Made by a program: the position numbers and the translations under genes. Under the pieces are notes generated by a model. It ran no database searches. It was given only the letters and a program-made list of their open reading frames with translations, and was not told the origin of the DNA. DNA of 64,000 nucleotides from Odiellus spinosus (lineage: Eukaryota; Arthropoda; Arachnida; Opiliones; Phalangiidae). The DNA lies in NCBI GenBank assembly GCA_963920705.1, contig OY987237.1, forward strand, positions 3,440,601-3,504,600, in the 5' to 3' direction. Shown here one piece after another: positions 728-61,093 of the stretch (position 1 is the stretch's first letter; every line of letters starts with the position of its first letter).

Positions 728-1043
728 CAAGAATCCATTCAGGTTCCATAAGAATATGGGAGGGCCGCGATTCAATAACCATCCTCCCAAACTTTGTAGC
801 AAAAGTTCGTCCGCTTCGAATCGATTTTTCAAGTAAATCGCTCCTGACATCTATTATTAACCCGCGCCACTAACGACCTTGACATAATATTTTGGGTAAT
901 AAAAATGGAGCCGACCGAAAAAAGATCTAAGCGTACAAATGTTGCGAAAATTGCTGACGAACTTTTGTTACAAAGTTTGGGAGATTGGTACAAGAGGCTA
1001 AAGCTATGCTCCCATATTCTTATGGAACCTGAATGGATTCTTG
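728..1043 (+). mobile_element. MITE family 1, copy 1, 7-bp TSD GTTACAT
   Basis: This 316-bp element has terminal inverted repeats starting CAAGAATCCATTCAGGTTCC and ending in the reverse complement. GTTACAT is repeated directly outside both ends (721-727, 1044-1050), so the insertion is intact. The interior has no transposase; the 72-residue open frame inside (905-1123) overruns the element and is not a gene. Copies also occur at 23872 (reversed), 34935 and 60785. Confidence 0.85.
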
Positions 1044-1050
1044 GTTACAT

Positions 1051-1569
1051 GTACGACGCGTTTCGGAGAACGATCTCCTTTTTCAAGTACGACAATAATG
1101 AAATATTATGTTTCATTATTTAACATTATATCTATTAAATTTGGACTTTAACACTTTCAGAATTAATAAAAAAAGGGAAGGCCTATTTTGTATTTCATTT
1201 TTTATCAACTAGTAATCGTTTGAAAAAATACCATTATTCTTAGAACCCGGTAGGGTTCTATGTATTGGGCCCATCATCATCTGTAATGCTATTTTGATTT
1301 CCTAAAAAATTCAGTCTCTAGCCAATCAAAACGCTCCATTCTCCCATAGAATAACATTAAAATCGACTCTTTCGAAGACAAGTCCAGTGATTGACAGAAC
1401 TAAAAGAGGAATTATTTGTTACAGATATAATCACTTTTAAATGGTAGAGCAAGGTTCGAATGTTGAACTTTTCAAGTTTCATTTAAAAATATTAAGTCTA
1501 AGTATTTTAAAATTAATTCTAAAGTTGACCCTTTTTTTGGTACTTAGCTGGTTTCGCGCATGGCCAAAT
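1051..1569. other. AT-rich intergenic or intronic DNA
   Basis: No coding exon, RNA gene or repeat structure is visible here. A short copy of CCCATAGAATAACATTA at about 1344 recurs at 1570-1590 and 2060-2075, so part of this stretch is related to the inverted-repeat element just downstream. Confidence 0.4.
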
Positions 1570-2074
1570 CGTAATGTTATTCTATGGGATTTGGTTTTTT
1601 GAAAGTGGCTTACCTTTCAGATTTATTTTCTAATACTTCCGGATATTTTTCAGACTTGGATTTTCCGTGTGGTATGAATTAAGATTCGAGCTTTATTTTA
1701 AGACTAATTTCATAATTTTACACCAATTAGATGGCCCACAATCTATTTATGAAAACGGAGGGAACAACAAGGCGGAGAAATAGATTCGCCAAAAACCTAA
1801 GCCTAATTTGACAAATTAGGCTTAGGTTTTATATGGCTTTTTAAAATCACGAGCACGAGCGCGCGCGCTTGATTTGGAGGCTATGGGTATTGAACTCTAA
1901 TGACTTAATTTCTCCTTCTTCATATTTTTGCCGTTTATAGACTGTGACCAAACTAATCGGTATAAAATTATGAAATTAGTCTTAAAATAAAGCCTGTAAA
2001 ATATTTGGAAGCATTAGAAAATAAATCTGAAAGGTAAGTCTCTTGCAAAAAATCTAAATCCCATAGAATAACAT
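1570..2074. repeat. Inverted-repeat element with a central perfect hairpin
   Basis: The left arm (about 1570-1721) is the reverse complement of the right arm (about 1959-2074), sharing AATAAATCTGAAAGGTAAG, AGTCTTAAAATAAAG and CCATAGAATAACATTA. Between the arms lies a separate perfect hairpin at 1792-1830: 19-bp arms (AAAACCTAAGCCTAATTTG and its complement) with a one-base loop. The hairpin arm resembles the AGGCTTAG core of the TTAA MITEs in this window. The unit is probably a MITE or a pair of nested MITEs. Confidence 0.6.
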
Positions 2075-2161
2075 TAATTTTCAATATCTCCGCCTTAAAA
2101 GTACTCTCCTTTTTAAAAATGAGTGAAATTCCGAACGACTTGCCATTCCGAACGGCAATAA

Positions 2162-4500
2162 GGAAGGTATTAACATCAAAAATAATGAAAAAATTAATTG
2201 GAATTTGGTTTAAAGGACAATGGGGAAAATATAAAGATTTCGCTGCGGCTGTCGGAGGTATTAACATCAAAATTGCTGAAATAATTAATTTAAATTTGGT
2301 TTAAAGGGCAATGGGGAAAATATAAAGATTTCATTGCGGCTGTCGGAGGTATTAACATCAAAATTGCTGAAATAATTAATTTAAATTTGGTTTAAAGGGC
2401 AATGGGGAAAATATAAAGATTTCACTGCGGCTGTCGGAGGTATTAACATCAAAATTGATGAAAAATTTAATTTAAATTTGGTTTAAAGGGCAATGGGGAA
2501 AATATAATGATTTCGCTGCGGCTGTCGGAGGTATTAACATCAAAATTGATGAAAAATTTAATTTAAATTTGGTTTAAAGGGCAATGGGGAAAATATAATG
2601 ATTTCGCTGCGGCTGTCGGAGGTATTAACATCAAAATTGATGAAAAAATTAATTTTAATTGGGTTTAAAGGGCAATGGGGAAAATGTAGAGATCTGACTG
2701 AATCAAGTGAGGCTGCCCCAGCTATTAACATCAAAAATTATGAAAAAATTAATTTTAATTGGGTTTAAAGGGCAATGGTAAAAATGTAGAAATTTGACTA
2801 AATCAAGTGCGGCTGCCCCAGCTATTAACATCAAAAATTATGAAAAAATTAATTTTAATTGGGTTTAAAGGGCAATGGTAAAAATGTAGAAATTTGACTA
2901 AATCAAGTGCGGCTGCCGCAGCTATTAACATCAAAAATTATGAAAAAATTTAGTTTAATTAGGTTTAAAGGGCAATGGTAAAAATGTAGAAATTTGACTA
3001 AATCAAGTGCGGCTGCCCCAGCTATTAACATCAAAAAAACGTAAAAATTAATTTTAATTGGGATTAAAGGGCAATGGTAAAAATGAAGAGATTTGACTGA
3101 ATCAAGTGCGGCTGCCCCAGCTATTAACATCAAAAATTATGAAAAAATTAATTTTAATTGGGTTTAAAGGGCAATGGTAAAAATGTAGAAATTTGACTAA
3201 ATCAAGTGCGGCTGCCGCAGCTATTAACATCAAAAATTATGAAAAAATTTAGTTTAATTAGGTTTAAAGGGCAATGGTAAAAATGTAGAAATTTGACTAA
3301 ATCAAGTGCGGCTGCCCCAGCTATTAACATCAAAAAAACGTAAAAATTAATTTTAATTGGGATTAAAGGGCAATGGTAAAAATGTAGAGATTTGACTGAA
3401 TCAAGTGCGGCTGCCCCAGCTATTAACATCAAAAATAAGGAAAAAATTAATTTTAATTGGGATTAAAGGGCAATGGTAAAAATGTAGAGATTTGACTGAA
3501 TCAAGTGTGGCTGCCCCAGCTATTAACATCAAAAATTATGAAAAAATTAATTTTAATAGTTTAAAGGGCAATGGTACAAATGTAGAGATCTGACTGAATC
3601 AAGTGCGGCTGCCCCAGCTATTAACATCAAAAATAATGTAAAAATTAATTTTAATTGGGATTAAAGGGCACTGGTAAAAATGTAGAGGTTTGACTGAATC
3701 AAGTGAGGCTGCCCCAGCTATTAACATCAAAAATTGTGAAATAATTAATTTTAATTGGGTTTAAAGGGCAATGGTAAAAATGTAGAGATCTGACTGAATC
3801 AAGTGCGGCTGCCCCAGCTATTAACATCAAAAATAATGAAAAAATAAATTTTAATTGGGATTAAAGGGCACTGGTAAAAATGTAGAAATTTGACTGAATC
3901 AAGTGAGGCTGCCCCAGCTATTAACATCAAAAATTGTGAAATAATTAATTTTAATTGGGTTTAAAGGGCAATGGTAAAAATGTAGAGATCTGACTGAATC
4001 AAGTGCGGCTGCCCCAGCTATTAACATCAAAAATAATGTAAAAATTAATTTTAATTGGGATTAAAGGGCAATGGTAAAAATGTAGAGATTTGACTGAATC
4101 AAGTGCGGCTCCCCCAGCTATTAACATCAAAAATAATGTAAAAATTTTTTTTAATTGGAATTAAAGGGCAATGGTAAAAATGTAGAGATTTGACTGAATC
4201 AAGTGCGGCTCCCCCAGCTATTAACATCAAAAATAATGTAAAAATTAATTTTAATTGGGATTAAAGGGCAATGGTAAAAATGTAGAGATCTGACTGAATC
4301 AAGTGAGGCTGCCCCAGCTATTAACATCAAAAATAATGTAAAAAATTTTTTTAATTGGGATTAAAGGGCAATGGTAAAAATGTAGAGATTTGACTGAATC
4401 AAGTGCGGCTGCCGCAGCTATTAACATCAAAAATTATGAAAAAATTAATTTTAATTGGGTTTAAAGGGCAATGGTAAAAATGTAGAGATTTGACTGAATC
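2162..4500. repeat. Two-subfamily satellite, 91-bp then 100-bp units
   Basis: The shared landmark TTAACATCAA recurs at 2170, 2261, 2352, 2443, 2534 and 2625 (period 91), then at 2725, 2825, 2925, 3025, 3124, 3224 and on to 4421 (period about 100). The longer unit differs by about 9 extra bases around GACTGAATCAAGTGCGGCTG. Units carry TTTAAAGGGCAATGG. A three-unit block is repeated almost exactly with a period of 299 bp (2903-3133 and 3202-3432 translate identically), so higher-order duplication has occurred. The open frames inside are repeat artefacts. Confidence 0.95.
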
Positions 4501-4566
4501 ACTTTTTAATGGGCTAGTCTTTTAATATAGAAGTTAACACTTTCGTGTTAGACTGAAGTGACAGAT

Positions 4567-4868
4567 ATTATATCAAAAATGTCTTTGCGAACAAAGACCC
4601 AGAAGGACATGTTATGGCCTTGAATGTCTGAAGTGACAGATATTTAATTTTCTTTTAAAACATTAAATTTAAATACAATTAAATTTTCTTTTAAAACATG
4701 AAATTTAAATACAATTAGATTTTCTTTTAAAACGAAATTTAAATATAATCACAATCTGGCACGATTTAGAGTTTCAAATTTCAATACAACTGATTTTATT
4801 CACTCGGAAATATTTAAGAAAAACATAACAGACGATTTTCTCCCATTGACGCTTAACATTAAATTTCG
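4567..4868 (+). repeat. Inverted arm of a Penelope-like element (plus orientation)
   Basis: This 302-bp segment is an almost perfect reverse complement of 5701-6000; the only difference I see is a 2-base insertion (TTTAGAGTTT against TTTAGTTT). It begins inside the last codons of the GIY-YIG reading frame (DPEGHVMALNV then TGA) and continues through the 3' flank. Repeats that include the end of the open frame, in direct or inverted orientation, are known for Penelope-like elements. Confidence 0.75.
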
Positions 4869-4977
4869 ATAGAAAAATATACTTAATTTAGCTTTGGCTT
4901 TAGGCATAGACTCAAAGTTCTATGATCTGATCTCATACCTTAATTGGATAATGTTTTCTATGGATAATGTTTTCTAT

Positions 4978-5300
4978 GGATAATGCTTTATTATAACTCT
5001 TCGACTTTAGTCGAGGCAATTCGTTCTCGTTCATGTTAGCTTATGAATGCTTATCAAGGAATTTAGAGGGAAAAAAATTCCCCATATTTTAATTTTTAAT
5101 CTAGGTTGCAAACGAACAAACCTAATCCATGGATAATGTTTTATTACAACTCCTCGACTTTAGTCGAGGCAATTCGTTCATGTTAGCTTACGGATGCTTA
5201 TACAAGGAATTTAAAGGGAATAAAAATTCACCATATTTTAATTTTTAACTTGGGTTGCAAACGAACAAACCTAATTCATGGATGTTTTTTTATAACTCCT
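4978..5300. repeat. Tandem duplication, about 150-bp unit
   Basis: Units start with ATGGATAATG at 4978, 5131 and about 5280 (partial). Each unit contains the 6-bp stem hairpin CTCGAC-TTTA-GTCGAG (with one variation), CATGTTAGCTTA and GGTTGCAAACGAACAAACCT. The array lies between the two inverted arms of the Penelope-like element. Confidence 0.75.
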
Positions 5301-5700
5301 AATAACTAATTAGTGGTCCCTTATGGAAATCATCATTTTAATTGTACGGTTTTAATGAAAAGAAAAATGAAAGTATTACAATTTATTTAAAAAGCTTATC
5401 CGCTCTAAAATTCGTCGCTTTGAAATTCTCTCCGCTTGCGCGCGCAATATAGCTTTGAAAGTACAAATTGTTATGGTTTGCGTCGTCTGCTAAGCTAGAA
5501 AAGAAGGTGACTTTAAACGGGCTTTAAAAAACACATTTCCCTTTATCATATACCCATTCCAATAAACCGGCGAGTATTTTTAACGATCCGTTCAATTGCG
5601 AGTCGTGGAAATTCGGGTTAAACTAAGAAAACATAAAGTGGACTCGCGTTATACTGAAAAATAACAGTTCAATACACGTTTTCCCTGAAAAATAATTAAG
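5301..5700. repeat. Interspersed repeat shared with 27.4-27.5 kb
   Basis: The stretch around 5395-5530 (CTTATCCGCTCTA, ACAAATTGTTATGG, CGTCGTCTGCTAAGCT, GGTGACTTTAAA) matches the reverse complement of about 27370-27510. It is a dispersed, non-coding repeat. The rest of the interval shows nothing recognisable. Confidence 0.45.
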
Positions 5701-6000
5701 CGAAATTTAATGTTAAGCGTCAATGGGAGAAAATCGTCTGTTATGTTTTTCTTAAATATTTCCGAGTGAATAAAATCAGTTGTATTGAAATTTGAAACTA
5801 AATCGTGCCAGATTGTGATTATATTTAAATTTCGTTTTAAAAGAAAATCTAATTGTATTTAAATTTCATGTTTTAAAAGAAAATTTAATTGTATTTAAAT
5901 TTAATGTTTTAAAAGAAAATTAAATATCTGTCACTTCAGACATTCAAGGCCATAACATGTCCTTCTGGGTCTTTGTTCGCAAAGACATTTTTGATATAAT
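5701..6000 (-). repeat. Inverted arm of a Penelope-like element (minus orientation)
   Basis: This is the reverse-complement partner of 4567-4868 and forms the 3' end of the endonuclease reading frame plus its downstream flank. The two arms point towards each other with 832 bp between them. Their near identity suggests recent origin or ongoing conversion. Confidence 0.75.
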
Positions 6001-6259
6001 CAATATTGAGCTGACCTTGTTTTTTTATGTACAGGCTTTCAATATATCGTCGTTTGAAATAATTTGATTCTAGTTTTAGAATATATTTGTCCCCCCAATT
6101 AATTTGGTGTTTATTTTCCCACGCGTGAGCGGCCAGGCCATTGTTCATGTCCCTATTTTTAACAGCTCGGGCATGTTCTTGGACTCGCGTATTGAAGGGT
6201 CTTTCAGTTTCGCCTACATAAGAGGAATTGCAATCGTTACACGGGATATTATAAACCAC
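5936..6259 (-). pseudogene. GIY-YIG endonuclease domain of a Penelope-like retroelement, 5' truncated
   Basis: The 107-residue frame reads VYNIPCNDCNSSYVGET near its start. It has the zinc-binding-like CxxC (IPCNDC), the GIY-YIG-type core (YNIPC...SYVGET), an Arg in RPFNTRVQEH, a conserved AAHAWENKHQINW segment (the His and Glu expected in this fold) and the closing YIKNVFANKDPEGH. That is the C-terminal endonuclease of Penelope-like elements, which nicks target DNA for reverse transcription. No ATG begins the frame (GTG at 6257-6259) and no reverse-transcriptase core is present upstream, so this is a 5'-truncated, dead copy. Its last codons lie within the inverted arm. Confidence 0.8.
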
Positions 6260-6490
6260 ACCCGCCGGATTAGCTTTTATGTTCTTGTTGTTAATAATGT
6301 TTTTGGTTGAATTAATAAAATAATATTTAAGGTTAGGATTACGTTTATGAGCCAGATTAATATTTAAATGTTTTAATTGTCAAAAGTTCTAATTGCTCGC
6401 TTTTATTTTTGATGTAGGGGAGGGCTAGATAAAGATCAGTTGTGCTATTAGGGTGGGTGAGGGATTCACATGTTTGAATGTTAGATGTAT
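6260..6490 (-). pseudogene. Decayed linker region of the same Penelope-like element
   Basis: Upstream of the endonuclease frame the minus strand still encodes recognisable pieces such as TDLYLALPYIKNKSEQLEL and INSTKNIINNKNIKANPAG, but with stops and frame changes between them. This is the linker normally found between reverse transcriptase and endonuclease. The homology fades after about 6490. Confidence 0.5.
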
Positions 6491-7101
6491 TTCTGTTAGA
6501 TGTATTCTATAACTAAAATTATATTTGATGATAATCAAAAAAAAATTACAGACCACGTTTGATTCAAGTGCGAATTTAACTCTCGGTAAAAGTTTCAACT
6601 CTTAAAAGAGTAAATTCCTTTTTTCTCTTTCGGTTTTAGCGTGGAAGGGGCCAGTTTTTTTTTTTTTTTTTTTTTGGTTTTTTTCTATCCCAATACATAC
6701 AGTCTTTGCTCGCTTAAGGGTGGGTACTAAAAATGCTTCTACGAAATAGACTTGGATAGGGTGATCGCTATAGCAGCATCTGTTTGCCAAAGACTTATCA
6801 TTCAAGACACAGGCTTGGCATAAAAAAAGCCTTACTGGTAAAGTGTATGCCAATATCAACACTTCTTTTCATATATATAGAGACAGGGCAGATCTTGGCT
6901 CTTTAACGCCCTAGGGCCAATGCTAAAAAAGAACGAGATGCTGAAGCTGTATTTTTACGAAATCGAACTGAGATTTCAATGGGTATAAATCCATCTATGA
7001 TTGAAATATCTTGAAGAGAGAATGAAGCGTAACAAGTGATTTATTTATGTATTATTTATCATTAGGAAATGCCCAGGACCATTAGCAATGATCACCTCAT
7101 C
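6491..7101. other. Non-coding stretch with a poly-T run
   Basis: A run of about 18 T residues lies at 6655-6675. A minus-strand open frame covers 6602-6862, but it includes the poly-T translated as polylysine and has no family resemblance. I see no supported gene here. Confidence 0.35.
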
Positions 7102-7429
7102 CAGGGTTGCCACAGGTCAGGGAAAACAGGGAATTTGAAAATGAAGCAAAAACACCAGGGAAAAGTCAGGGAATTTAAAGATTTTTCAAGAAGCTAGGAA
7201 ATTACAATCATTATCCGCGGAAAAGATTCTTAGCTGATAGTGTCAGTTGTATAGATTAGAACAAAGCTACGCGTGCAACAAAGTTTGGCGAACGCGATTA
7301 TATAAAAAATAAAAGGTTAAAAATTGGGTAGTATTAGCTGAAATGATCAATGAAAATCGTTGGAAAAAGTCAGGGAAAAACCTGCAAAAGTCAGGGAATT
7401 TGAATCTGAATGAAACTGTGGCAACTCTG
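7102..7429. mobile_element. CAGGGTTGCC-ended element, copy A
   Basis: The ends are CAGGGTTGCCACAG and its inverted copy (GTGGCAACTCTG). The interior is built of repeated GTCAGGGAA motifs around a conserved core (TTGTATAGATTAGAACAAAG, then GTTTGGCGAACGCGATTATA). No target duplication is obvious for this copy. The CAGGG end is typical of hAT-type elements, but the superfamily is unproven. Confidence 0.7.
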
Positions 7430-11100: not shown

Positions 11101-11106
11101 CGAAAG

Positions 11107-11585
11107 CAGGGTTGCCACAGACATGGAAAAGTCAGGGAATTGGTCTAAAAGTCAGGGAATTGGTCTAAAAGTCAGGGAATTTTAAAATATTCCAAAGATC
11201 AGGGAAAACTCGTAATTTTCATATTATCCAAAAATAAAATTATGGAATCTCATAGTATGGATTTAGTTAGACCAGGGAGGCTTCCATAAATATCTGTAAA
11301 AAATTATTATATGGGATCAGAGCCTTCAAAACATTTATGGAAAGTCCCTATTGAGAAAAACACGTTTTTCTACGAATACTTTCTAACAGTATATTGTTTT
11401 AACAGAAAACCTAATTTTTGGGAAATGGTGATTTACACAAGGAAGAGCTCCCGCGCCAATCTCTAGCAACCTTGGAGTTCTACTAATTTAAACCTTTAAA
11501 TTGGTCAGGGAAAACCGGTGTAGATGGTCAGGAAAAACCTGGAAAAGTCAGCGAATTTTGTTATGACAAATCTGTGGCAACCCTG
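11107..11585. mobile_element. CAGGGTTGCC-ended element, copy B, 5-bp flanking repeat
   Basis: The terminal repeats CAGGGTTGCCACAG and CTGTGGCAACCCTG are perfect inverted partners. GAAAG repeats directly at both outer edges (11102-11106 and 11586-11590). The interior contains the GTCAGGGAA series, but the conserved core of the other copies is replaced by a different 300-bp sequence. This is the best-preserved copy by its ends. Confidence 0.75.
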
Positions 11586-13113: not shown

Positions 13114-14132
13114 TTAAAGGGAGAATAAAGTCTAACAAAACAAGATCTTATTTGCTAGACCATACCCCCTACTATATAACGATGGTTATGGGTTAATTAG
13201 GACCATGACGTATTTGAAATTTTCAAGTTTTGATATATTTCGATCCCTAGCATACTGGATTTTAACATTTGAAAGTTTCAAATAGGTTTTTCTCACACTT
13301 CTACTGGTTTTAGAATTTTTTTTTTAATTTTTTCTGATCTCCCCAGTCCATATCCATCGTTATCTTATCTCCAAAATGGTTCGCAAATAAGTTAGAAATA
13401 AAATTTTAACTTCTAGAGTTTGATATCTGGCAGTTAAAGGGATAATGTAGTCATTTTTATAATATATCTTATTCGCTACTAAAAAAAACTTAACAAACAA
13501 ATATTATGGTTAAAATCAGAAGCCGATGAAACCCTCCTTTGAAGTCTACTACTCTAATATTCCATATAGCGCTCCTCTCTGTATGGGTAAAATTCACAAT
13601 TTTACGAGATCGGAGGGGTCCTACTTCATACCCCCCTGTCTACGGAAAATTGGAAATTCTCTCTCTCTACAAACGACGACGTTTTTTTGACGAACTCCAA
13701 GGCTGCTAGAGATATTCGCTCGACGAACTCCCGCTCCGAAAATATCTACCGTTAGGAGGCGTACGAATCGCGCTTTTTGAAACTAACCCATACAGAGAGG
13801 GGTTGACAAGACCCGGGAGTAATAGACTTCAAAGGAGGGTTTCATCGGCTTCTGTTAAAATGTATTTTTAACTTACGCGGAAAAAATGGCTTAAAAAGGC
13901 TTCACCGAGAGTTTGATATTTGGTCGATAAACGGCGAGTAAAAGCGCCTCAAATTTAAGAAGACACTCGCTATTGGCGAGAGACTGTTTAACGATTAAAT
14001 TGATAACTCTCCATTAAACCTACTTTCATAATTGATTGAAAATTAATTTCTACCTTAATATTGGTTGACCTTTTTTAATGGTAAGAAATGGATTGAAAGT
14101 TATTTGTTGTTAGGCTTCATTATCCCTTTTAA
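13114..14132. mobile_element. TTAA-flanked MITE carrying a nested insertion
   Basis: The left end TTAAAGGGAGAATAAAGTCT and the reverse complement of the right end (TTAAAAGGGATAATGAAGCC) match, followed by CTAACAA in both arms. TTAA flanks both ends. A family 2 MITE with its own target duplication sits inside at 13517-13854, so the outer element is the older insertion. Confidence 0.65.
13517..13854. mobile_element. MITE family 2, copy 1, 7-bp TSD TTAAAAT
   Basis: The 338-bp element has long inverted ends: CAGAAGCCGATGAAACCCTC at the left and its complement at the right, extending through CTTTGAAGTCT. TTAAAAT is repeated directly outside both ends (13510-13516, 13855-13861). The interior has IRs around a CTCTGTATGGGT / ACCCATACAGAG pair and no transposase. 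A second copy is at 58207-58543. Confidence 0.85.
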
Positions 14133-21439: not shown

Positions 21440-22812
21440 GAGTTTAGTTTATCAGAATAGAGTCATGGAGTTTAATTTATCAGAAAAAGCTCATGGAGTT
21501 TAATTTATCTGAAAAAGGTTGAAGTTTAACTTATTAGAAAAAGGTCATGGAATTTCATTTATTATTAAAAGGTCATGGAGTTTAATTTATCAGGAAAAGG
21601 TCATGGAGTTAAATTTATCATTAAAAGGGTCATGTAGTTTAATTTATCGGGAAAAAGGTCATGTAGTTTAATTTATCGGGAAAAAGGTCATGTAGTTGAA
21701 TTGATCAGGAAAAGGTCATGGAGTTTAATTTATCGGGAAAAAGGTCATGGAGTATAATTTATCAGAAAAGGTCGAAGTTTAACTTATTTATCAGAAAAAG
21801 GTCGAAGTTTAACTTATTTATCAGAAAAAGGTCGAAGTTTAACTTATTTATCAGAAAAAGGTCGAAGTTTAACTTATTTATCAGAAAAAGGTCGAAGTTT
21901 AACTTATTTATCAGAAAAAGGTCGAAGTTTAATTTATTTATCAGAAAAAGGTCGAAGTTTAACTTATTTATCAGAAAAAGGTCGAAGTTTAACTTATTTA
22001 TCAGAAAAAGGTCGAAGTTTAACTTATTTATCAGAAAAAGGTCGAAGTTTAATTTATTTATCAGAAAAAGGTCGAAGTTTAACTTATTTATCAGAAAAAG
22101 GTCGAAGTTTAACTTATTTATCAGAAAAAGGTCGAAGTTTAACTTATTTATCAGAAAAAGGTCGAAGTTTAACTTATTTATCAGAAAAAGGTCGAAGTTT
22201 AATTTATTTATCAGAAAAAGGTCGAAGTTTAATTTATTTATCAGAAAAAGGTCGAAGTTTAACTTATTTATCAGAAAAAGGTCGAAGTTTAACTTATTTA
22301 TCAGAAAAAGGTCGAAGTTTAACTTATTTATCAGAAAAAGGTCGAAGTTTAACTTATTTATCAGAAAAAGGTCGAAGTTTAACTTATTTATCAGAAAAAG
22401 GTCGAAGTTTAATTTATTTATCAGAAAAAGGTCGAAGTTTAACTTATTTACCAGAAAAAGGTCGAAGTTTAACTTATTTATCAGAAAAAGGTCGAAGTTT
22501 AACTTATTTATCAGAAAAAGGTGGAAGTTTAACTTATTTATCAGAAAAAGGTCGAAGTTTAACTTATTTATCAGAAAAAGGGCATGGAATTTAATTTATT
22601 TATCAAAAAAAGGGCATGGAATTTAATTTATCAGGAAAAAGTCATGGAATTTAATTTATCAGAAAAAGGTCATGGAGTTTAGCTTATCGGGAAAAGGTCA
22701 GGGAGTTTAAGTTATCAGGAAAAGGTCATGGAGTTTATTTTATCAGAAAAAAGTCGTGGAGTTTATTTTATCAGAAAAAAGTCGTGGAGTTTAATTTATC
22801 AGAAAAAGGTCA
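21440..22812. repeat. Minisatellite array, homogeneous 30-bp core with 27-28-bp flanks
   Basis: The core (about 21765-22575) is some 27 nearly identical 30-bp units reading GTCGAAGTTTAACTTATTTA then TCAGAAAAAG; the few differences are C/T in AACTTA/AATTTA plus single changes. Both flanks hold a related shorter unit, GTCATGGAGTTTAATTTATC then AGAAAAAG. Because 30 is divisible by 3, one frame stays open for 302 codons with a 10-residue period (KRSKFNLFIR). There is no upstream gene signal, so I treat this frame as an artefact of the repeat. Confidence 0.95.
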
Positions 22813-23423: not shown

Positions 23424-23871
23424 GACTACTTTCCAAGCAAGTTAATTGATTTATATTTTATTACCATTGATTTTTATCGATTAGATTTTATTCTCTCTTT
23501 TAAACAGTAGCAATATTCTTATTCAAGTTCGCTAAACAAATAAAATATTGTCTCCAGTGTCCCTCGCTAAGCCTAAATTGTTTTTAAGTATTAACTCCGA
23601 ATAAGAATTATCGACAATTTAGTATTTATGACTAATTAATTTTAATTTATGCAAATTCCGTGTTAATATCGCGTACACTATCGAAGCCACGAATAACGAC
23701 GGTTTTTATTTTATAATTCTACTCATTTTTGGGCTTTTAAGTAACTTAAAGCAGTTTTATTCACATTTGTTTGCACTGCCAATTATTATTTTTAAAAATC
23801 ACAGATATCTATATTTAATTATCATCTTTGCTATTTTCTCATTAATACCATCTATTTATTTACGCTAACAC

Positions 23872-24187
23872 CAAGAATCCATTCAGGTTGCATAAGAATA
23901 TGGGAGCATAGCTTTAGCCTCTGGTACCATCCTCCCAAACTTTGTAACAAAAGTTCGTCCGCAATTTTCGCAACATTTGTACGCTTAGATCTTTTTTCGG
24001 TCGGCTCCATTTTTATTACCCAAAATATTATGTCAAGGTCGTTAGTGGCGCGGGTTAATAATAGATGTCAGGAGCGATTTACTTGAAAAATCGATTCGAA
24101 GGAGACGAACTTTTGCTACAAAGTTTGGGAGGATGGTTATTGAATCGCGGTTCTCCCATATTCTTATGGAACCTGAATGAATTCTTG
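23872..24187 (-). mobile_element. MITE family 1, copy 2 (reversed), 7-bp TSD CTAACAC
   Basis: 316 bp, inserted in the opposite orientation to the other three copies. The ends are CAAGAATCCATTCAGGTTGC and AACCTGAATGAATTCTTG. CTAACAC repeats directly at 23865-23871 and 24188-24194. No coding capacity. Confidence 0.85.
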
Positions 24188-24194
24188 CTAACAC

Positions 24195-27747: not shown

Positions 27748-28127
27748 AATTTAGATTTCCAAGCCGTTAGCCTGGCGTATCGCGGTCAGAGTTTTAAAGT
27801 ATAATAGTGGTTAACCTCGGGCGAGGTTATATAGAAGCGAAAATCCTCTTATATTATACAGCCAGCCGCAACCCTCCGAGCTCAATCACTCTTCTGATCG
27901 ACATTTTAATGAATAAGTTTTCTCCTATCCTAAAGAGAGATACGAAGGCTTTGAGAAGAGGATATAGAAACCGCGCGTGGAATATCCTTATAACTGTGGA
28001 GAATTTTAATCCTTAATGGATTGCCTCAAGCCTCTTAAATATAACAACCGAATTAACGTCGGCTTAGAGCCCCCGTTACAAATCCATAACTTAAAAGAAA
28101 AATTACAGTTTTATAGATTAGTTTGAG

Positions 28128-28545
28128 CAGAGGTATATAATAACCCCCTTCGGGGGGAAGTATGAAAGCCCCTATACTACCAATCCTAAAAATCACGAAC
28201 AACAAGAGCCCGCTGCTGACTATCTAGGCCACTAGCTCGCGCTGGACTTCTCAATGTCGCTACTATAGTAAATGGTCTTTGTATAAACAAGACGGCTCGA
28301 TTTGTGTTTAGAACTTCCTGTCTCAGGAGCCAGGCTATCTGTTAAATTGGAGTTGAAGGTTGACTTCAGCTCGCGAGTTCCGGAAGTGTGCGTAGGGAAA
28401 ATTTAGTGAGGTTCAAAATGGTGTAACTATTTTTTGGGAGTAAAGCGGTGTGTCGATCCGCCGCGATTTACGCCGGGCACTTGTTGTTCGTCGGTTTTGC
28501 CTACCTTTCATACTTCCCCCCGAAGGGGGTTATTATAGACCTCTG
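28128..28545. mobile_element. MITE family 3, 7-bp TSD GTTTGAG
   Basis: The 418-bp element starts CAGAGGTATATAATAACCCC and ends with the inverted partner GGGGTTATTATAGACCTCTG (one gap). The arms continue through a CCCCCTTCGGGGGG palindrome and AAGTATGAAAG. GTTTGAG repeats directly at 28121-28127 and 28546-28552. The interior has no coding sequence. A possible fragment (GGGGGGAAGTATTAAGG) is at 49068. Confidence 0.8.
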
Positions 28546-28598
28546 GTTTGAGGAATACGACTTGGAAGAACCTTGTCACGAGTATGATAAACTTTAAA

Positions 28599-33935: not shown

Positions 33936-34934
33936 ACATGATCCAAGTTATTTCGTACGAACGTCGCTTTTAAAAAATGTTTAAAAACTGATTTTAAAGT
34001 TTGTAGTGTAAACGGGGCTTCCGTGTCTCTGTATCAAGCTTGTGGGAGAATGGTATTATAGTTCTAGGAGAACCCCCTACCGATTGCTTCTCTTTCGATA
34101 TTTCGTATATAATAACTTGTCGGTTTTTTTCGCCCAACTCGTTGACGAAAGACGGGGAAAGCGTGCTCATTGAAAGCGTAGATAAAAAACTCCAGGTAAA
34201 GAATTTTATAAAGGGACAGTGAAAGGAATAATGCGTTTTTTTTTACAAAAGAGTAAATTTTGGCGAATTATCAGAGCCCTTTCCACGGAGTTGTCTAAAT
34301 TTCAACGGTTTTATTAGTTTATTAAATACACCCGCTCAAAATAAAACGAAATGCTTGTTAGGGTGTTTAAGTATCTCTTAACAAAATTAGCTTCTTTAAT
34401 CAGGGATAATAGCGGAAGTAATTAATAATTAAATCGTTTCATTGCACCTTTAAGTATATTTCGAGGGATATGAAATAATTCTTTGTAAGCGAAAACCGTA
34501 GGTGACTCACGTAGACTACGCCAGGTTGTAAACGAAACTAAATCCGTCGATCCAGATGTCACTAAACCCCCTTTACCTCGTTACCAGTACTTGTTAACTT
34601 AAAATGCTCGCTCTGTTTATGACAGTACTCTGGCAACCCTTATATCCATTCTTTCGTGGCAATTCTTTGAATGAATAGACTATTTAACAGCCGGTCATAT
34701 CTTCCACAGTGATTTTTCCACAATTAAAACCCCTTTTTCTACAATAATTTTAATGAATTTCAAGCCTCAAATTATAAGGGATCTTACGGGGTTTGATTTT
34801 TAGTCGAGGAGAGAAAAAAACGAAAATTTGGACGGTGTTTATTATATATTTTTCGAAATGAAGAATTTTTAAACTTTTTTGCTTTGTTTTCTAATGAGAA
34901 ACTATTTAAAATATCGAATAGAATACAGAAATAC

Positions 34935-35252
34935 CAAGAATCCATTCAGGTTCCATAAGAATATGGGAATGGCTGCGATTCAATAACTATCCTCCCAAAC
35001 TTTGTAGCAAAAGTTCGTCTGCTTCTAATCGATTTTTCAAGTAAATCGCTACTGACATTATATTATTAACCCGCGCCACTAACGACCTTGACATAATATT
35101 TTGGGTAATAAAAATGGAGCCGACCGAAAAAAGATCTAAGTGTACAAATGTTGCGAAAATTGCAGACGAACTTTTGTTACAAAGCTTGGGAGGATGGTAC
35201 CAGAGGCTAAAGCTATGCTCCCATATTCTTATGGAACCTGAATGGATTCTTG
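34935..35252 (+). mobile_element. MITE family 1, copy 3, 7-bp TSD GAAATAC
   Basis: 318 bp with ends CAAGAATCCATTCAGGTTCC and GGAACCTGAATGGATTCTTG, which are perfect inverted partners. GAAATAC repeats directly at 34928-34934 and 35253-35259. The orientation matches copies 1 and 4. Confidence 0.85.
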
Positions 35253-35259
35253 GAAATAC

Positions 35260-38033: not shown

Positions 38034-39255
38034 CAGGCTGGGAAATACGGATTATTTTTAAACTGGAGCCCAAGCAGTTTTATTAAAAAACTGGACATTG
38101 GCCAGTTACAATTTTCATGAGCTTGACACTCTCACTATGACGTCACTATGACGTAGGCTAAGAAACAAAATTTTGGAATTAATTAACTGGCCACCCCCTC
38201 CCCCCCTCCCCCCTCCCCCCTCCCCCCTCCCCCCTCCCCCACCTGTCCGTGCGCAGGGTGGGGGTAGTGTTCCATCTTTGTCGTGGTGAGGGGGCCCGAG
38301 TTCTAGGATCCGTCCTAGTTCCGCGAATTGGAACACGGCCGTCTCGCCCACACCCGGCCGACTCGCTGGGCCCGTCTTGGGTCCTGGCAGCTCCCTCTGC
38401 CTTTGAGTCGGTCTTGTTGGGTCACGGTTACATTGTAGGGGCCGTATGGCGCAGCTGTGTGGGTTCTGGTCGCCAAGCCGTTTCTCCTCCTTTTGTTGCC
38501 TTAGTCCCTCGGCACGTGTGTGCGGGAGCACTGGTCTGGTTAACTTCGGTTCTCGCTCTTTGGCCTTGTTTCCCGTTCCGGGCGTGGTTTCGCGTGCGGC
38601 ACTTCAGCGGACAAATGATTAGTCGCATGGATTGGCGGGGGTGTTGTGTACTTTGTTTACGGTGCACCCCCTTAACAATTCAAATGATGGCCACCCCATC
38701 CCCCCACCTGTCCGTGCGCAGGGTGGGGGTAGTGTTCCATCCTTGTCGTGGTGAGGGGGCCCGAGTTCTAGGATCCGTCCTAGTTCCGCGAATTGGAACA
38801 CGGCCGTCTCGCCCACACCCGGCCGACTCGCAGGACCCGAACTGGGCCCTGGCAGCTCCCTCTGCCTTTGAGTCGGTCTTGTTGGGTCACGGTTACATTA
38901 CGGAGGCCGTATGGCACTGCTGTGTGGGTTCTGGTCGCCAAGCCATATACCTTTCCTTCTGCTGCCATAGCCTCCTCACGTGTGTGCGGGAGCACTGGTC
39001 TGGGGCTCTTCGGTTCCCGTTGTTTGGCCTTGTTACCCGTTCCGGGCACGGTTTCGCGTGCGGCACTTTAGGGACAAATGATGCAGCCGCACGGATTGGC
39101 GGGGGTGTTATGTACTAGTTTACGGTGCACCCCCTTAACAATCAAAACTGATGGCCACAAGGCCAGTAGACCCCCAAGCATTTAATTTTTAAACTGGCCC
39201 AGCTAGTTTTTAAACTGGACTTTTGTCCAGTAAAACCGCCTTATTTCCCAGCCTG
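38034..39255. mobile_element. hAT-like non-autonomous element with GC-rich duplicated interior, 8-bp TSD GAATAGAA
   Basis: The ends CAGGCTGGGAAATACGG and CCGCCTTATTTCCCAGCCTG are inverted partners. GAATAGAA repeats directly at 38026-38033 and 39256-39263, the 8-bp size expected for hAT transposition. Subterminal TTTTTAAACTGG motifs occur near both ends. The interior is GC-rich, in sharp contrast to its surroundings, and consists of two copies of a 465-bp unit (starting ACCTGTCCGTGCGCAGGGTG at 38241 and 38706). No transposase domain is visible. Confidence 0.85.
38187..38240. repeat. C-rich microsatellite inside the hAT-like element
   Basis: (CTCCCCCC)n-type tract at the start of the first 465-bp unit; the second unit has only a short version. 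On the minus strand it is G-runs separated by single A residues, a pattern that could fold into a G-quadruplex. Confidence 0.85.
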
Positions 39256-39263: not shown

Positions 39264-40372
39264 TATGATTGAAACAAAGACTATATTAAGTTGGTACTCT
39301 GATATGGACTAGAAAGATCTATATACGCGGTTAAGTTAAATATATTACTTAATATTATTTAGCTATTATATTTCCTGGAAATTCTGGGGATATAGATTAT
39401 CGAACTCGAATTTTACCCGTAAAGGAGCACAATTTAATGTTAGAGAAAGAGCAATTTAATATCTTTAAGATTATAGTTAGTCCACTACTCAAAAGATTTT
39501 AATTATTATTAAATATTTTTCAATAAACGGATGAAGACGACCAAGGAAAATTTCCTCTCGTATTATATTTTTACCGTTAGTGATCAATTTAAATATTTAA
39601 CTACCTTAAATATTTAATTACCTTGGTTAAAATGACAATCTTTACTCTTGCATAAACTCGAATTTTTAATAGGCCAAAAGAAAAAACAATTAGATTATCT
39701 GGGATATCTTTAAATACCTCAAATATATCTAATTAAATATAGTAGGAAATATATTAGGAAACAAGATGGTCAAGCCCTTAAGGAATAGCTAAACCCCTGA
39801 TCTTTGAAAAAGAGCCCTAAGATAATGATTTGACCTTTCATTTTTCGACCTTTTCATTTTTTCACTTTTCAAATTAAACGTTTATAAAATTATTTTTTCT
39901 ATAGAAATAGTTAATGTTAAAAATATAATAGTTAAAAGGTACTAGCCTTTAAAAAATCGTGATAAAACGTTTACGGACGGACAGGTTATCATCTCAATCG
40001 TATAAGCCCCTCACAGGGCGCAATCCCTTACCCTGAAATCTTGGGAATCTAAAACAACTAAAGGAATAAATCTATTTCTTCCTATTTCGGCAAAACATTA
40101 AAAAAAAACTCCCCCTGTTTCCTTATCCAATAATACTTTTTCCGTGGGTTGGCGTTTTTTTTTTTTTTTTTTTTCTTTATTTCCTATATAAGGCCGTGGC
40201 TTTAAATCGGGATAAAACAAGATGGTCAAGCCCATAGAATAGCTAGACCCATGACATAGTAAAAGAGGCTGAAAAGAATTATGCTATAGCAGGGGCTTGT
40301 TATGCATGCATAAACGCTCTTTGAACAATTTGAATGGCGTTTCTAGATCCCTTTAAACACGAAGTTTTTCAA
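39264..40372. other. Intronic DNA with a short repeated motif
   Basis: ACAAGATGGTCAAGCCC followed by GAATAGCTA-ACCC occurs at about 39762 and about 40217, and similar versions lie at 55308 and 63218. A run of 20 or so T lies near 40156. No exon is supported. Confidence 0.4.
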
Positions 40373-41538
40373 ATCATGTTTTTCAAATCATGTTTTTCAA
40401 ATCATGTTTTTCAAATCATGTTTTTCAAATCATGTTTTTCAAATCATGTTTTTCAAATCATGTTTTTCAAATCATGTTTTTCAAATCATGTTTTCCAAAT
40501 CATGTTTTTCAAATCATGTTTTTCAAATCATGTTTTTCAAATCATGTTTTTCAAATCATGTTTTTCAAATCATGTTTTTCAAATCATGTTTTTCAAATCA
40601 TGTTTTTCAAATCATGTTTTTCAAATCATGTTTTTCAAATCATGTTTTTCAAATCATGTTTTTCAAATCATGTTTTTCAAATCATGTTTTTCAAATCATG
40701 TTTTTCAAATCATGTTTTTCAAATCATGTTTTTCAAATCATGTTTTTCAAATCATGTTTTTCAAATCATGTTTTTCAAATCATGTTTTTCAAATCATGTT
40801 TTTCAAATCATGTTTTTCAAATCATGTTTTTCAAATCATGTTTTTCAAATCATGTTTTTCAAATCATGTTTTTCAAATCATGTTTTTCAAATCATGTTTT
40901 TCAAATCATGTTTTTCAAATCATGTTTTTCAAATCATGTTTTTCAAATCATGTTTTTCAAATCATGTTTTTCAAATCATGTTTTTCAAATCATGTTTTTC
41001 AAATCATGTTTTTCAAATCATGTTTTTCAAATCATGTTTTTCAAATCATGTTTTTCAAATCATGTTTTTCAAATCATGTTTTTCAAATCATGTTTTTCAA
41101 ATCATGTTTTTCAAATCATGTTTTTCAAATCATGTTTTTCAAATCATGTTTTTCAAATCATGTTTTTCAAATCATGTTTTTCAAATCATGTTTTTCAAAT
41201 CATGTTTTTCAAATCATGTTTTTCAAATCATGTTTTTCAAATCATGTTTTTCAAATCATGTTTTTCAAATCATGTTTTTCAAATCATGTTTTTCAAATCA
41301 TGTTTTTCAAATCATGTTTTTCAAATCATGTTTTTCAAATCATGTTTTTCAAATCATGTTTTTCAAATCATGTTTTTCAAATCATGTTTTTCAAATCATG
41401 TTTTTCAAATCATGTTTTTCAAATCATGTTTTTCAAATCATGTTTTTCAAATCATGTTTTTCAAATCATGTTTTTCAAATCATGTTTTTCAAATCATGTT
41501 TTTCAAATCATGTTTTTCAAATCATGTTTTTCAAATCA
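40373..41538. repeat. 14-bp minisatellite, about 83 near-identical units
   Basis: The unit TTTTTCAAATCATG is repeated without interruption for nearly 1.17 kb. I see a single variant unit (TTTTCCAAATCATG near 40490). Because the unit has no stop in any plus frame, all three plus frames stay open for over 400 codons with a 14-residue period; none has a gene context. The homogeneity implies recent expansion. Confidence 0.97.
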
Positions 41539-41996
41539 AATATTTTATTTCTGACATACTCAAACCCAACACGCATAAGCTCCCTTATTATCTCGTTCGC
41601 GACGACTTGTTTGTTGTTTTTGAGTTTTCATTACTGACAGACTAGAACCGAAACCTTCATAAGCTACCTTTTATCTCGTTCTCGACGACCCTTTATTAAC
41701 AACGACTTGTTTTCTGTATTGTATATCTATGAAGATATAAGGAGTTTTTCGCTAAAGTTTAACCAATTACCCGTGGTAACGAGGATGAGCGTCCAACTCT
41801 CGATCGCAAAGCTATGAAGCTTCGAGCGCGACGCGGTTTTTTCCGAAATTCGGGAGACCACTTGGTGGAAAATCGATATCTTAAAAAAAAATAGATATTT
41901 TAAATTTGTCTGGGACATCACGTCGTGACGTCTGGTGGATAAGAAACGAATGTTTTTTCGATACGATGACGTTTTTCGTCATTTCTGGGACACCGA

Positions 41997-56272: not shown

Positions 56273-56374
56273 AAGATTTTTTGTGAGTTTTTTTATTTAC
56301 ACCAGACTCTCTTACGGTATAATCTAAGGCCCCTATACTATGAAACTTATAAAAAAAGTCTGGTTTTTATTTGA

Positions 56375-56380
56375 AATAAA
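56375..56380 (+). terminator. Possible polyadenylation signal of the PLGRKT-like gene
   Basis: AATAAA lies 103 bases after the stop codon, the first exact match downstream in the sense strand. The cleavage site cannot be seen. Confidence 0.4.
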
Positions 56381-56989
56381 TAATTATATACGTAATGGGG
56401 TCAAATAGGGGTCAAATTTGATTCAAATACAAGCCAACGAATCATATTAACTAACTAAAAATAAAATAACTTGGATAAAATATTTTTAAAAACTTTAAGT
56501 AATAAAAAAATCAAATTTTATATTTAACAGAAACCGTTATGGTTATAAACAGACACCCAAATTCCCGTTTTTAGTTCGTTGCGTCCTTGAAATGGACTTT
56601 AATTCTCATCGAAAAACGTGTCTATTAATGGGAATTTAGGACCCTGCTTAGGTCCTATAGTATTTTATTTAAAATATCAAAACAGGGTGCTCTGAAATTG
56701 ATCAGAAGATAAAATTACAAAGTGGTCTTAAAATCTCAAAAACGAAATACCAAAACCCTTTTTCAGATCCTTTAGCGACGCACCCTGTAAAATTAAGTCT
56801 AAGATTAAATAACGTCATTATTGTAGAGGCTTATTTATAATTATTAATTAATTTTAACACTTAAAGCCTTAAAGACAAAAATTAAATTAAAAATGACGCC
56901 TTAAAAGTTACATCCATAACGAAATATTATAGGTTAAGAAATAGGGATTTTACTCGTTAACACTAGGTGGCTCTTTGGAATATTCAAAA
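56381..56989. other. Downstream flank, no feature supported
   Basis: AT-rich DNA with no exon or repeat recognised. A weak inverted theme, TAGGACC / GGTCCTA, near 56636-56660 was noted but does not extend. Confidence 0.3.
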
Positions 56990-56997
56990 ATACGCAG

Positions 56998-57237
56998 CAG
57001 GGACGGAAATAAGCACAAATCACTGGTCATTTGTCCGATAAATTTTCCAAATGTCCGATAACATTTTATTTTTAAGAGGGGGTCACTGGACAAATGTCCG
57101 ATAAAAAAAAAGTACTTTTCAATACAGGAAATGTAGCATTGTCCGGTAATTTTGTGAAATGTCCGATAACTTTTGAATTTTTAAGGGGGGTTACTGGACA
57201 TTTGTCCAATAAGAAAAATTTCTTATTTCCGTCCCTG
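56998..57237. mobile_element. hAT-like MITE, 8-bp TSD ATACGCAG
   Basis: The ends CAGGGACGGAAATAAG and CTTATTTCCGTCCCTG are perfect inverted repeats. ATACGCAG repeats directly at 56990-56997 and 57238-57245. The 240-bp interior is an imperfect duplication of a block with AAATGTCCGATAAC, then TTTTTAAG-GGGGT, then CACTGGACAAATGTCCGATA. The termini and 8-bp duplication fit hAT. Confidence 0.9.
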
Positions 57238-57245
57238 ATACGCAG

Positions 57246-58199
57246 TTCTTCAAAACACACGAACGAATAACTAAGTACTTTCGAGTTCTAGTTAGTCTAA
57301 AAAGAGTAAAGAATGACTACCAGAGACACGCTTTGAAAAATAATTGATGTCAGAGTGATAGAATATAGATTATCCATCGATTATCGTGAAACAGGCGGAA
57401 GAAATGAACTAACTTTTTAATTTAAATCCGTTATAAATACTGAAACTCCAAGACGCCCCCTAGTGAAGAAAACTGTGTAAAATTCCCCCTTCATTGTTTT
57501 GCTACTAGTACATATCAAAATAAAGCTTAAAAATCATTTATTTTCCAAAGGGAGAGTGAAATGATATTTTTTTTTGAAATATATAAACCTTTCTTTATAT
57601 TTAAAATTTAAAATCCAAGCACGCGCGATCCCTATATATAATAAATTAAATTACTTGGCATAATTATCTTAAATTTCTCTGTATCCTTACGCGCCAACAT
57701 TTCTCCGTGTCTAATTATTTGCCTAAGCTTCCGCCTATTGCTATAAAATAACCTACCTTCTTTTTTTCTATCTTTGAATGTCTTTCCTCAAAATCTTAAA
57801 TCTTATATAAGAGATCTTTCTATCAAAAGTATTTGGAATCGATTTTGTCAAGTCAATCTTTCGAATTTTTGTAATATCTGGATATTTTAATAATATATCT
57901 TATATAGTAATTAACGAAGATAAAAAATATTTAACGAAATTATAATAGTTAAGGGAAGTAGTTAACGAAATTGAAAGCAATATTAAATGTTATTAAAAGG
58001 TTGTGTCGTTAACGAAAAATTTAATTATTTATTAATATTAATTCAAGTTTATACGTTGTTAATGATAAAACGTGCGTGTAGATAGATTATAACATTTTCG
58101 TATGTTAATTAGATTTTAGTCTCGATTTTGATTGCAAACAAATTAGGAATTTCCAAAAAAATAAAAATCTCTTATTCTATCTGTTCGTATTTCTTATCT
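57246..58199. other. No feature supported; lone MITE end
   Basis: A left-end-like motif (AAAGGGAGAGTGAAATGA) at about 57547 has no partner. The remainder is AT-rich without exons. Confidence 0.35.
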
Positions 58200-58206
58200 A
58201 AATTAT

Positions 58207-58543
58207 CAGAAGCCGATGAAACCCTCCTTTGAAGTCTACTACTCTAATGTTCCATATAGCGCTCCTCTCTGTATGGGTAAAATTCACAATTTTACGAGTT
58301 AGAAGGGGTCCTACTTCATCCCCCCTGTCTACGGAAAATTGGAAATTCTCTCTCTCCACAAACGACGACGTTTTTTGGACGAACTCCAAGGCTGCTAGAG
58401 ATATTCGCTCGACGAGCTCCCGCTCCGAAAACATCTACCGTTAGGAGGCGTACGAATCGCGTCTTTTGAGAATAATCCATACAGAGAGGGGTAGACAAGA
58501 CCCGGGAGTAATAGACTTCAAAGGAGGGTTTCATGGGCTTCTG
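58207..58543. mobile_element. MITE family 2, copy 2, 7-bp TSD AAATTAT
   Basis: 337 bp, very similar to 13517-13854 (only scattered substitutions). The ends are CAGAAGCCGATGAAACCCTC and AGGGTTTCATGGGCTTCTG. AAATTAT repeats directly at 58200-58206 and 58544-58550. Overlapping open frames on both strands result from its palindromic arms. Confidence 0.85.
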
Positions 58544-58600
58544 AAATTATTAATATTTCAATCCATTTCACTCTTGAATGGGCAAGTATTTTATTAAAGC

Positions 58601-58870
58601 CGCGTTCATACTAGGCCTTGAAATCGATTTAAACCGTTTCAAAACGTTTCTCAGAAGTCGCGTGAATGGGAAACTGTCGTTTCAGAAATCGATTTGATTC
58701 GATTTATCGAAACTGCTTCGGGAACCAGTTTCGTACCAATTCGCTTTCAGAAACTGATAGATGAAGCTACAATAAATCGATTTATAAAGGTAACGCCTGA
58801 CGCTTAAATCGATTCCTGGCGATTTGAATATCGGTTTGAATTAAAATTTCAAATCGAGTAAGAAATGTGA
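58601..58870 (+). mobile_element. AAATCGATTT-rich element, copy 2
   Basis: Begins GCCGCGTTCATACTAGGCCT then TGAAATCGATTTAAACC, and contains CTGCTTCGGGAACCAGTTTC and ATAAATCGATTTATAAAGGT in the order found in 60214-60505. The right end is eroded. There is no coding sequence. Confidence 0.65.
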
Positions 58871-60213
58871 TGTTTCTTGACTAATCAATTTTTCTCTATT
58901 GATTTTCTTTCTCTATGATTTTCATTTTTATTTGATACCTCTATCAAAGCTAGGTTTCTTTTATCTCTAAGTAAAAGAATGATAGAGATAACAGGCCAAC
59001 GTAGCTTTATACACGCGTTAAAGTTAAGCCTAAACTAAACTTATTCCGTACAGAAAATTTCATTTAAAATTTAATTTATTCCTTATGAGTTTGACAGGGA
59101 ATCACGGCTACGTTATCGATTTAAAAAGGGTACGTTTTACGACCCATCTCTTAGAAACTAGAATTAATTCGTAATTAATGTTAAATATATACTAAATATA
59201 TTTTAGTAATTTCAAAATTTCAATTATTTAAAATCGCGTAAATTTCGCTGATTAATTCCTACTAATATAGTTTGCGTAATATTTTAATTTCCAGATTAAT
59301 TTATATTTAAATTTAATTACAAACATCATTTAAACCTTAATTTTTAATTAAACTTTCATATAGCAGAATATTTAAGTTAATTTTCAAGATAGGTGGCGCG
59401 TTATAGTTGTCGAATTAAAATCAATATTTTCAGTATATGGTTATGGCAGTCTTCTATCTTCGTCTATCTTACTTCCAATGGGAAAAAAACACGTTATGCC
59501 AAAAACCTTCTATTCTTCGTTTCGAAATTCGTATCTTCATTGAGTGCCCCTATTTCTTTGAAAAAAGGTTGTTCGTCTTAATGGAAATTTACAGCTAGAG
59601 AGATCAGTTTTTGAATCTAATAGTTTCCTACGCGTTGCAACCTCCCAATTACGTTTGAGTATGGAGAATCGATATTTTGGTGGGCTTTGATGATGAAGGG
59701 TGGATATTATCGAGTTGTAAGGGCGTTTATGAGGGTGCTAGCCGATCGTGGCTATCAGAGAAAAAGTCTTCTTGTAATAGAAATTGAATTTTCATCACCC
59801 TACTCTATCCTTTTTTTTATCGACGTGGTGATTTTTCCCAAGGGAATTTTTAAAGGACCATGATGCCCTAACATTACGGAATCAAAAGGTCAATTAAATG
59901 GTGTTTAGTACAACCTAGAGCAGTTGTAAAAATTCACAACCCCTATCTCTTAAAGAATCCTCCAGATATTTGAGCATTTTAACCATATAGGACATTAACA
60001 ACGAATAATTATATTAATTAGAAACAAATAAACTGTAGTAAAACCTCGCTCGTGTCCGCGGTGAGTTTAAAAGTAGCTTGAATTTACGGAAATAAGAATT
60101 TGAAACACGAATTTTGTGTTTAAAATCGCGGATATTCAAATATAAATCATTACGCTACTCTTAGAACTCTAAAAATAACTCGGTTCGTCGAGCAAAGACT
60201 AGAGTTAACTAAA
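58871..60213. other. No gene supported
   Basis: A plus-strand frame at 59393-59581 follows an acceptor-like TTTTCAG but has no family resemblance. The rest is AT-rich DNA. Confidence 0.3.
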
Positions 60214-60505
60214 GTCGCGTTCATACTAGGCCTTGAAATCGATTTAAAATGTTTCAAAACGTTTCGCTAGAGTCGTGTGAATGGGAAACCGTCTTTTCTC
60301 GAATCGATTTCATCCTTAAAACTGCTTCGGGAACCAGTTTCGTACGATTCGGAAGTTTCAACAACCGATGGGTGAAGCTACGATAAATCGATTTATAAAG
60401 ATAGTGCGTGAACGCGCCTTTAAAACGATTCCTGGCGATCGATTTGAATATCGGTTTGATTTTACCGTTTCAAATCGATTTAGATACGCTAGTGTGACCG
60501 TATCT
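60214..60505 (+). mobile_element. AAATCGATTT-rich element, copy 3
   Basis: The best-preserved copy. The left end GTCGCGTTCATACTAGGCC and the right end GATACGCTAGTGTGACCG are loosely inverted. CTAAAG occurs just outside both sides, a possible short target duplication. Internal ATCGATTT sites recur five or more times. Confidence 0.65.
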
Positions 60506-60784
60506 AAAGAAAACACGCTTCAAATGAACGTAAAAATAAAATAGACCAATATTGGGTAAAACTTCTAGGAAAAATTGTGTTTTAAGAGAAACGTTTTAGG
60601 TTTTCCAAGAAGTTATATTTAGAGTATAATATCAAAAATGATACAAATATAGATGCCTGGCCTGCTCTGGCAATCGTCAGAGGAAAAAAAATATATATAA
60701 GAAATAAAGTAAAGTGTTTTTCTTCTGCCGGAACTAGTTGCTTATCAGTACATCCGACAAAATATACCTTTAAATTCGTATTAT

Positions 60785-61093
60785 CAAGAATCCATTCAGT
60801 TTCCATGGGAGGGCCGCGATTCAATAACCATCCTCCCAAACTTTGCAGCAAAAGTTCGTCTGCTTCGAATCGATTTTTCAAGTAAATCGCTCCTGACATT
60901 ATTTTATTAACCCGCGCCACTAACGACCTTGACATAATATTTTGTCTATTAAAAATGGAGCCAACCGAAAAAAGATCTAAGCGTACAAATGTTGCGAAAA
61001 TTGCAGACGAACTTTTGTTACAAAGTTTGGGAGGATGGTACCAGAGGCTAAAGCTATGCTCCCATATTCTTATGGAACTTGAATGGATTCTTG
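60785..61093 (+). mobile_element. MITE family 1, copy 4, 7-bp TSD GTATTAT
   Basis: 309 bp with ends CAAGAATCCATTCAGTTTCC and GGAACTTGAATGGATTCTTG. It has lost about 9 bp (ATAAGAATA) near the left end relative to copy 1. GTATTAT repeats directly at 60778-60784 and 61094-61100. Confidence 0.85.

Follow-up and report, generated by a model that had tools for sequence, protein, structure and literature searches.

Galileo, a member of the P superfamily in Drosophila, generates target-site duplications of 7 bp, rarely of 8 bp, with the consensus GTANTAC (excerpts of PMC4168063). Zebrafish Pdre2/THAP9 and the Drosophila P element have a THAP9-type transposase, and the cut made by the Drosophila P transposase has a stagger, or extension, of 17 nt (excerpts of the preprint PMC10983969). 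This chemistry implies that, once the donor site has been repaired, as many as 17 nt may be left from each inverted repeat.

Here, seven insertions of three MITE families, A, B and C, are described from a window of 64,000 nucleotides of the Odiellus spinosus genome, the window being the whole stretch of DNA that was analyzed. It is likely that the three families are non-autonomous P-superfamily MITEs, mobilized in trans by P-type transposases encoded elsewhere in the genome.

Seven insertions and their genome-wide copies

Family A is represented by a 316-bp copy at 728..1043 (plus strand; duplication GTTACAT at 721-727 and 1044-1050), a copy in the opposite orientation at 23872..24187 (minus strand; CTAACAC at 23865-23871 and 24188-24194), another at 34935..35252 (plus strand; GAAATAC at 34928-34934 and 35253-35259) and one with a short deletion close to its left end at 60785..61093 (plus strand; GTATTAT at 60778-60784 and 61094-61100). 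Copies of family B are found at 13517..13854 (338 bp, plus strand; TTAAAAT at 13510-13516 and 13855-13861) and at 58207..58543 (337 bp, plus strand; AAATTAT at 58200-58206 and 58544-58550), and family C has a 418-bp copy at 28128..28545 (plus strand; GTTTGAG at 28121-28127 and 28546-28552). An earlier note on this DNA had listed these seven insertions, and the positions, the CA start and TG end, and the perfect 7-bp duplication were reproduced exactly for each of them. Its description of the interiors as unrelated was also confirmed, A, B and C being without mutual similarity at E ≤ 0.01. All three families consist of small, coding-free MITEs. Their inverted repeats measure 35 bp in A, where an imperfect repeat extends to ~90 bp, 38 bp in B and 41 bp in C.

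When the window was scanned for inverted repeats bordered by exact duplications, five of the seven insertions were recovered as 7-bp elements, those at 23872 and 28128 having escaped because base 8 differs in one tip. CA...TG tips were present in 67 of the 68 fetched MITE loci, the exception (L021) being a damaged end. These ends alone are non-discriminating, because two window elements with 8-bp duplications have them as well. Both elements, at 56998-57237 and 38034-39255, have CAGG tips, with duplications ATACGCAG and GAATAGAA, respectively, and are perhaps hAT-type.

In the 443-Mb assembly (286 contigs), a first look gave at least 90 candidates for A, at least 959 for B and at least 416 for C, and the best 40 scored per family were 96-100% identical to the window copy. 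Duplication length was tabulated for 8 A, 30 B and 30 C fetched loci (one of each being the window copy) and for 4 more window copies, making 72 copies, 70 of them distinct, which are best-scoring loci and no random sample. An exact 7-bp duplication was found in 55 of the 70 distinct copies (A 11/11, B 23/31, C 21/28), 7 bp with one mismatch in six (two B, four C) and an exact 8-bp duplication in one, the B copy L055. The duplication was unrecognizable in eight copies (five B, three C), among them L021 with its damaged end. Among the exact duplications of these best-scoring copies, 55 of 56 are of 7 bp and one is of 8 bp; the 7-bp length overwhelmingly prevails, and the mostly 8-bp outcome that the earlier note had named as contrary to its interpretation was absent.

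A wider scan for inverted repeats with exact duplications covered 360,735 bases (the window plus 79 loci, a sample biased by what was fetched) and found A, B and C again, together with two more families with 7-bp duplications. Family D, with tips CAAGAAGGAT or CAAGGAGGAT, has five copies of ~292 bp (e.g. L010:313-603 and L041:2417-2708), and family E, with the tip CAAAAGTGTA, has one clean copy of 368 bp (L015:1126-1493). Three single elements with CAGG tips were also found, all with 8-bp duplications, and the leftover rows of the scan were shifted versions of reported elements, simple-sequence matches or unclear singletons. At L015:1119-1925, an E and a C MITE adjoin, and three copies of CTAATAC separate and flank both. 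In this case, two MITE families hit one CTAATAC target, which was used twice.

The window holds other repeats as well. At 4567-6000, two inverted arms, 203 and 99 nt long and 100% complementary, enclose ~0.8 kb, and an overlapping frame resembles the GIY-YIG end of a Penelope-like element; five window frames, including this one, gave no Pfam match. A dispersed repeat with AGGGTTGCCACAGGTCAGGG near its start has diverged copies at 7103, 15282, 25485, 28591, 46506 and 52481, inverted tips CAGGGTTGCC are found at 11107-11585, and large tandem arrays occupy 40196-41600, 21616-22755 and 2483-4578, with units of 14, 30 and ~100 bp. A search of a phage collection with the window's first 20 kb gave no match.

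Target preference and the P elements of this genome

For A, B and C, the target motif was derived from empty sites rebuilt from the insertions with an exact 7-bp duplication (11 A, 23 B and 21 C). A palindromic motif, T...TAnTA...A, is common to the three families: counted from the centre of the duplication, T is preferred at -6, TA at -2/-1 and A at both +2 and +6. Each family has a palindromic target similar to the GTANTAC of Galileo. The position-weight correlation between families is 0.46-0.60 in register versus -0.23 to 0.20 at 16 other offsets. The 7-bp duplications and the common target preference thus point to one transposase superfamily for A, B and C.

A search with the P-transposase domain (PF21787) gave 386 candidates; of the 150 that were scored, every one exceeds the curated cut-off, and many matches fall within open frames 500-900 codons long. 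Clean inverted repeats with duplications were present at five of the ten P loci read, the other five being without clean ends. At four of the five clean loci the duplication is of 7 bp (GTTTTAC, ACTACAC, GTCTGTC and GTTTATA) and at the fifth of 8 bp (CGCCAACC), and the tips are CA in three and CG in two. In this small sample of five clean loci, P elements make mostly 7-bp duplications, like Galileo in Drosophila. The earlier note regarded exactly 7 bp as rare among animal DNA transposons; this length is nothing new in animals, being made by Galileo (excerpts of PMC4168063 and PMC2775673) and by four of the five clean P elements of this genome.

A Pfam scan of the main frames of L069-L073 found PF21787 and PF21788 in all five and THAP in three, and two opposite-strand frames in the scanned P loci had no Pfam match. 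A GGL-x-Y frame is present at L070:4488-5225 and L073:4371-5024 (both minus strand) as a separate, convergent open frame on the opposite strand; in L069 and L077, the GGL-x-Y stretch is on the transposase strand. The related frames of L070 and L073 are 36% identical over 73 aa (E 2e-12), neither has a Pfam family above cut-off, and in this convergent arrangement a P transposase may have been divided between two genes.

P-type transposases, with their THAP, RNase H and GTP-binding domains, would act in trans on A, B and C. Insertion would occur at a palindromic TA-rich site and give a 7-bp duplication, as in Galileo, the duplication and the motif being the parts of this scheme read directly from the DNA. 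P-type transposases, and not a new kind of enzyme, are probably the movers of the three families.

An autonomous partner was sought with tip patterns that exclude the MITE interior, a search that can miss diverged partners. There were 34 matches for C, 179 for B, 30 for A and 250 for the outer tip of B (control 26), and those checked by script amounted to 34/34, 100/179, 30/30 and 49/250, respectively. The checked matches are single ends and short remnants only. Among the checked A, B and C matches, no facing pair of tips 1-12 kb apart was found and every match is more than 8 kb away from any of the 150 scored P hits; the C pattern, which differs from the MITE by one excluded base, is the weakest test. 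Also, the similarity of A, B and C to five full P elements is no better than chance (best E 0.077).

Two candidates were rejected. A lone B end beside the P element of L077 was considered as a longer relative, but the next 4 kb (L079) are without a second end, and it is therefore probably a truncated copy. The P element of L070 was considered as the partner of B; the B sequence on both of its sides marks an insertion into a B copy, the full P element at L070:612-6431 sitting within a family B MITE.

The search for autonomous elements and their transposases suggested in the earlier note has thus yielded abundant P transposases but none with the termini of A, B or C among those checked, and no autonomous element with such ends was found among the checked tip matches and the ten P loci read. 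The earlier note had proposed one transposase lineage for all the insertions. At the level of the superfamily this is supported by the 7-bp duplications and the target preference, but for a single lineage it is not, the tips being family-specific and a matching autonomous element not having been found. That several P subfamilies each have a MITE of their own is at least as likely as one lineage, and different subfamilies for different MITEs would be likelier than one for all. It is rather doubtful that one P-type lineage, tolerating very different repeats and recognizing chiefly tip chemistry and spacing, amplified at least five families, A-E, with unrelated repeats, 7-bp duplications and one kind of target.

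Short tip-to-tip remnants

A P-type transposase would excise an element by cutting one strand at its tip and the opposite strand ~17 nt further inward, within the inverted repeat, and the repaired donor site would retain at most ~17 nt of each end. A genome-wide search for two facing 8-nt B tips with 0-30 bases between them found 58 sites, spanning up to 46 bp, against 1 for the reversed-pattern control. With 31-61 bases between the tips (47-77 bp), a range covered for B only, there are 3 sites (control 1). Among the 50 listed of the 58 sites, the length is 20-44 bp, and 31-38 bp in 32. The letters were read at 19 B sites, which correspond to 17 distinct sequences and 34 sides; by exact matching, 33 of the 34 sides keep 8-17 nt (8 being the search minimum) and one keeps 18-20, and with one mismatch allowed, five exceed 17 nt. 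Three sites have one common sequence, and the B sites are therefore not all independent. Judged by known P chemistry, the short B remnants are probably scars of the staggered P cut.

At least two B remnant sites bear the variant tip of a related family. The remnants at C2:11751587 and C3:20336893 have the variant tip CAGAAGCCNATGGAAAC, whose sequence suggests a relative of B with a different inner repeat. Moreover, three sites (C11:12809051, C12:12656187 and C15:4649586) seem to hold ~24 nt on one side, as estimated from the first 26 letters and lengths of 40, 38 and 38; such sides could come from copying during repair.

The nine A remnants measure 26, 28, 34, 34, 34, 38, 42, 44 and 44 bp (control 1). 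Three of them are exactly 34 bp, or 2 × 17, and the fit of A to a 17-nt limit is suggestive. For C, 14 sites were found (control 1), with six remnants of 45 bp, three of 42 and the others of 28, 30, 43, 44 and 46 bp. Since 12 of the 14 measure 42-46 bp, the 2 × 17 limit is not displayed; such lengths would require extra bases or joining at a micro-homology inside the repeat, so that C provides no clean test. Retention of at most ~17 nt per inverted repeat is found for B only, with exceptions. In the window and the fetched loci, no short A-E remnants were found.

Two adjacent 31-bp remnants lie inside the P element of L073 and bear that element's own tips. Their flanking 7-bp duplications, CTTCTTA and TTCTTAC, overlap between the two remnants. 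In one remnant the two tips are left with 17 and 14 nt; in the second, one tip is left with 13 nt and the other with 17 nt and at least one further matching base. These remnants, which are neighbours and not fully independent, connect remnants of this form with the P superfamily and with 7-bp duplications.

The short palindromic remnants could also be internal deletions of MITEs, produced by hairpins or replication slippage, and not excision scars. The three B sites that seem to keep ~24 nt on one side are in line with such deletions, and the 45-bp length of six of the 14 C remnants would match that of a micro-homology join. However, the B remnants reach a length of ~44 bp and hardly exceed it (58 sites of at most 46 bp versus 3 of 47-77 bp), a repeat of 38 bp should also give longer remnants by slippage, and the remnants of the P family in L073 share the same form, which makes this explanation unlikely. 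If it were true, the assignment to the P superfamily would lose one line of evidence, with the 7-bp duplications and the target motif untouched.

That A, B and C belong instead to the hAT superfamily, with an unusual 7-bp in place of an 8-bp duplication, is highly improbable. The CAG...CTG tips of B and C and the T/A target positions do recall hAT elements, and CAGG-tipped, MITE-like elements with 8-bp duplications occur in the window. Nonetheless, the three local CAGG-tipped elements make 8 bp, and the 8-bp duplication of hAT elements is found in only one of the 56 exact cases of A, B and C, the other 55 being of 7 bp. Also, hAT excision is not expected, to our knowledge, to leave 8-17 nt of both tips, which is what the B remnants keep. 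Just as improbable is a mover from another superfamily with 6-7 bp duplications, such as Dada, or from an undescribed one, which would fit the lack of an autonomous partner among the matches checked but is opposed by the 7-bp P elements, present and abundant here, and by the B remnants, which fit P chemistry.

Comparison with known P elements and P MITEs

Under the P-superfamily assignment favoured here, the dozens of sites that keep a short piece of each tip would be a natural genomic record of P-type staggered excision. For the remnant-length test pattern counts suffice, and it could be of help in sorting master-less MITE families into superfamilies. Among titles and the opening lines of abstracts, no report of P MITEs with 7-bp duplications outside Galileo was found, which is no claim of absence from print.

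The Drosophila P element has CA...TG tips, and both this element and zebrafish Pdre2/THAP9 make 8-bp duplications, unlike A, B and C. Pdre2/THAP9 resembles the three families in its CA...TG tip (excerpts of PMC10983969). The P-MITEs of Anopheles gambiae are numerous, like A, B and C, and the repeats of their P masters measure 27-31 bp; however, they make 8-bp duplications and their ends match known P masters (excerpts of PMC1562414). Galileo, with Newton and Kepler, shares with A, B and C the 7-bp duplication with rare 8 bp and the palindromic target with a TAnTA core (excerpts of PMC4168063), and many of its copies are likewise non-coding, consisting of terminal repeats and a spacer (excerpts of PMC4168063 and PMC2775673). 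The inverted repeats of Galileo proper are long and internally repetitive, a feature absent from A, B and C, whose repeats are of 35-41 bp (imperfect to ~90 bp in A) in bodies of 316-418 bp. The assignment of A, B and C to the P superfamily suggests that the 7-bp duplication is a trait of this superfamily beyond the Galileo of Drosophila.
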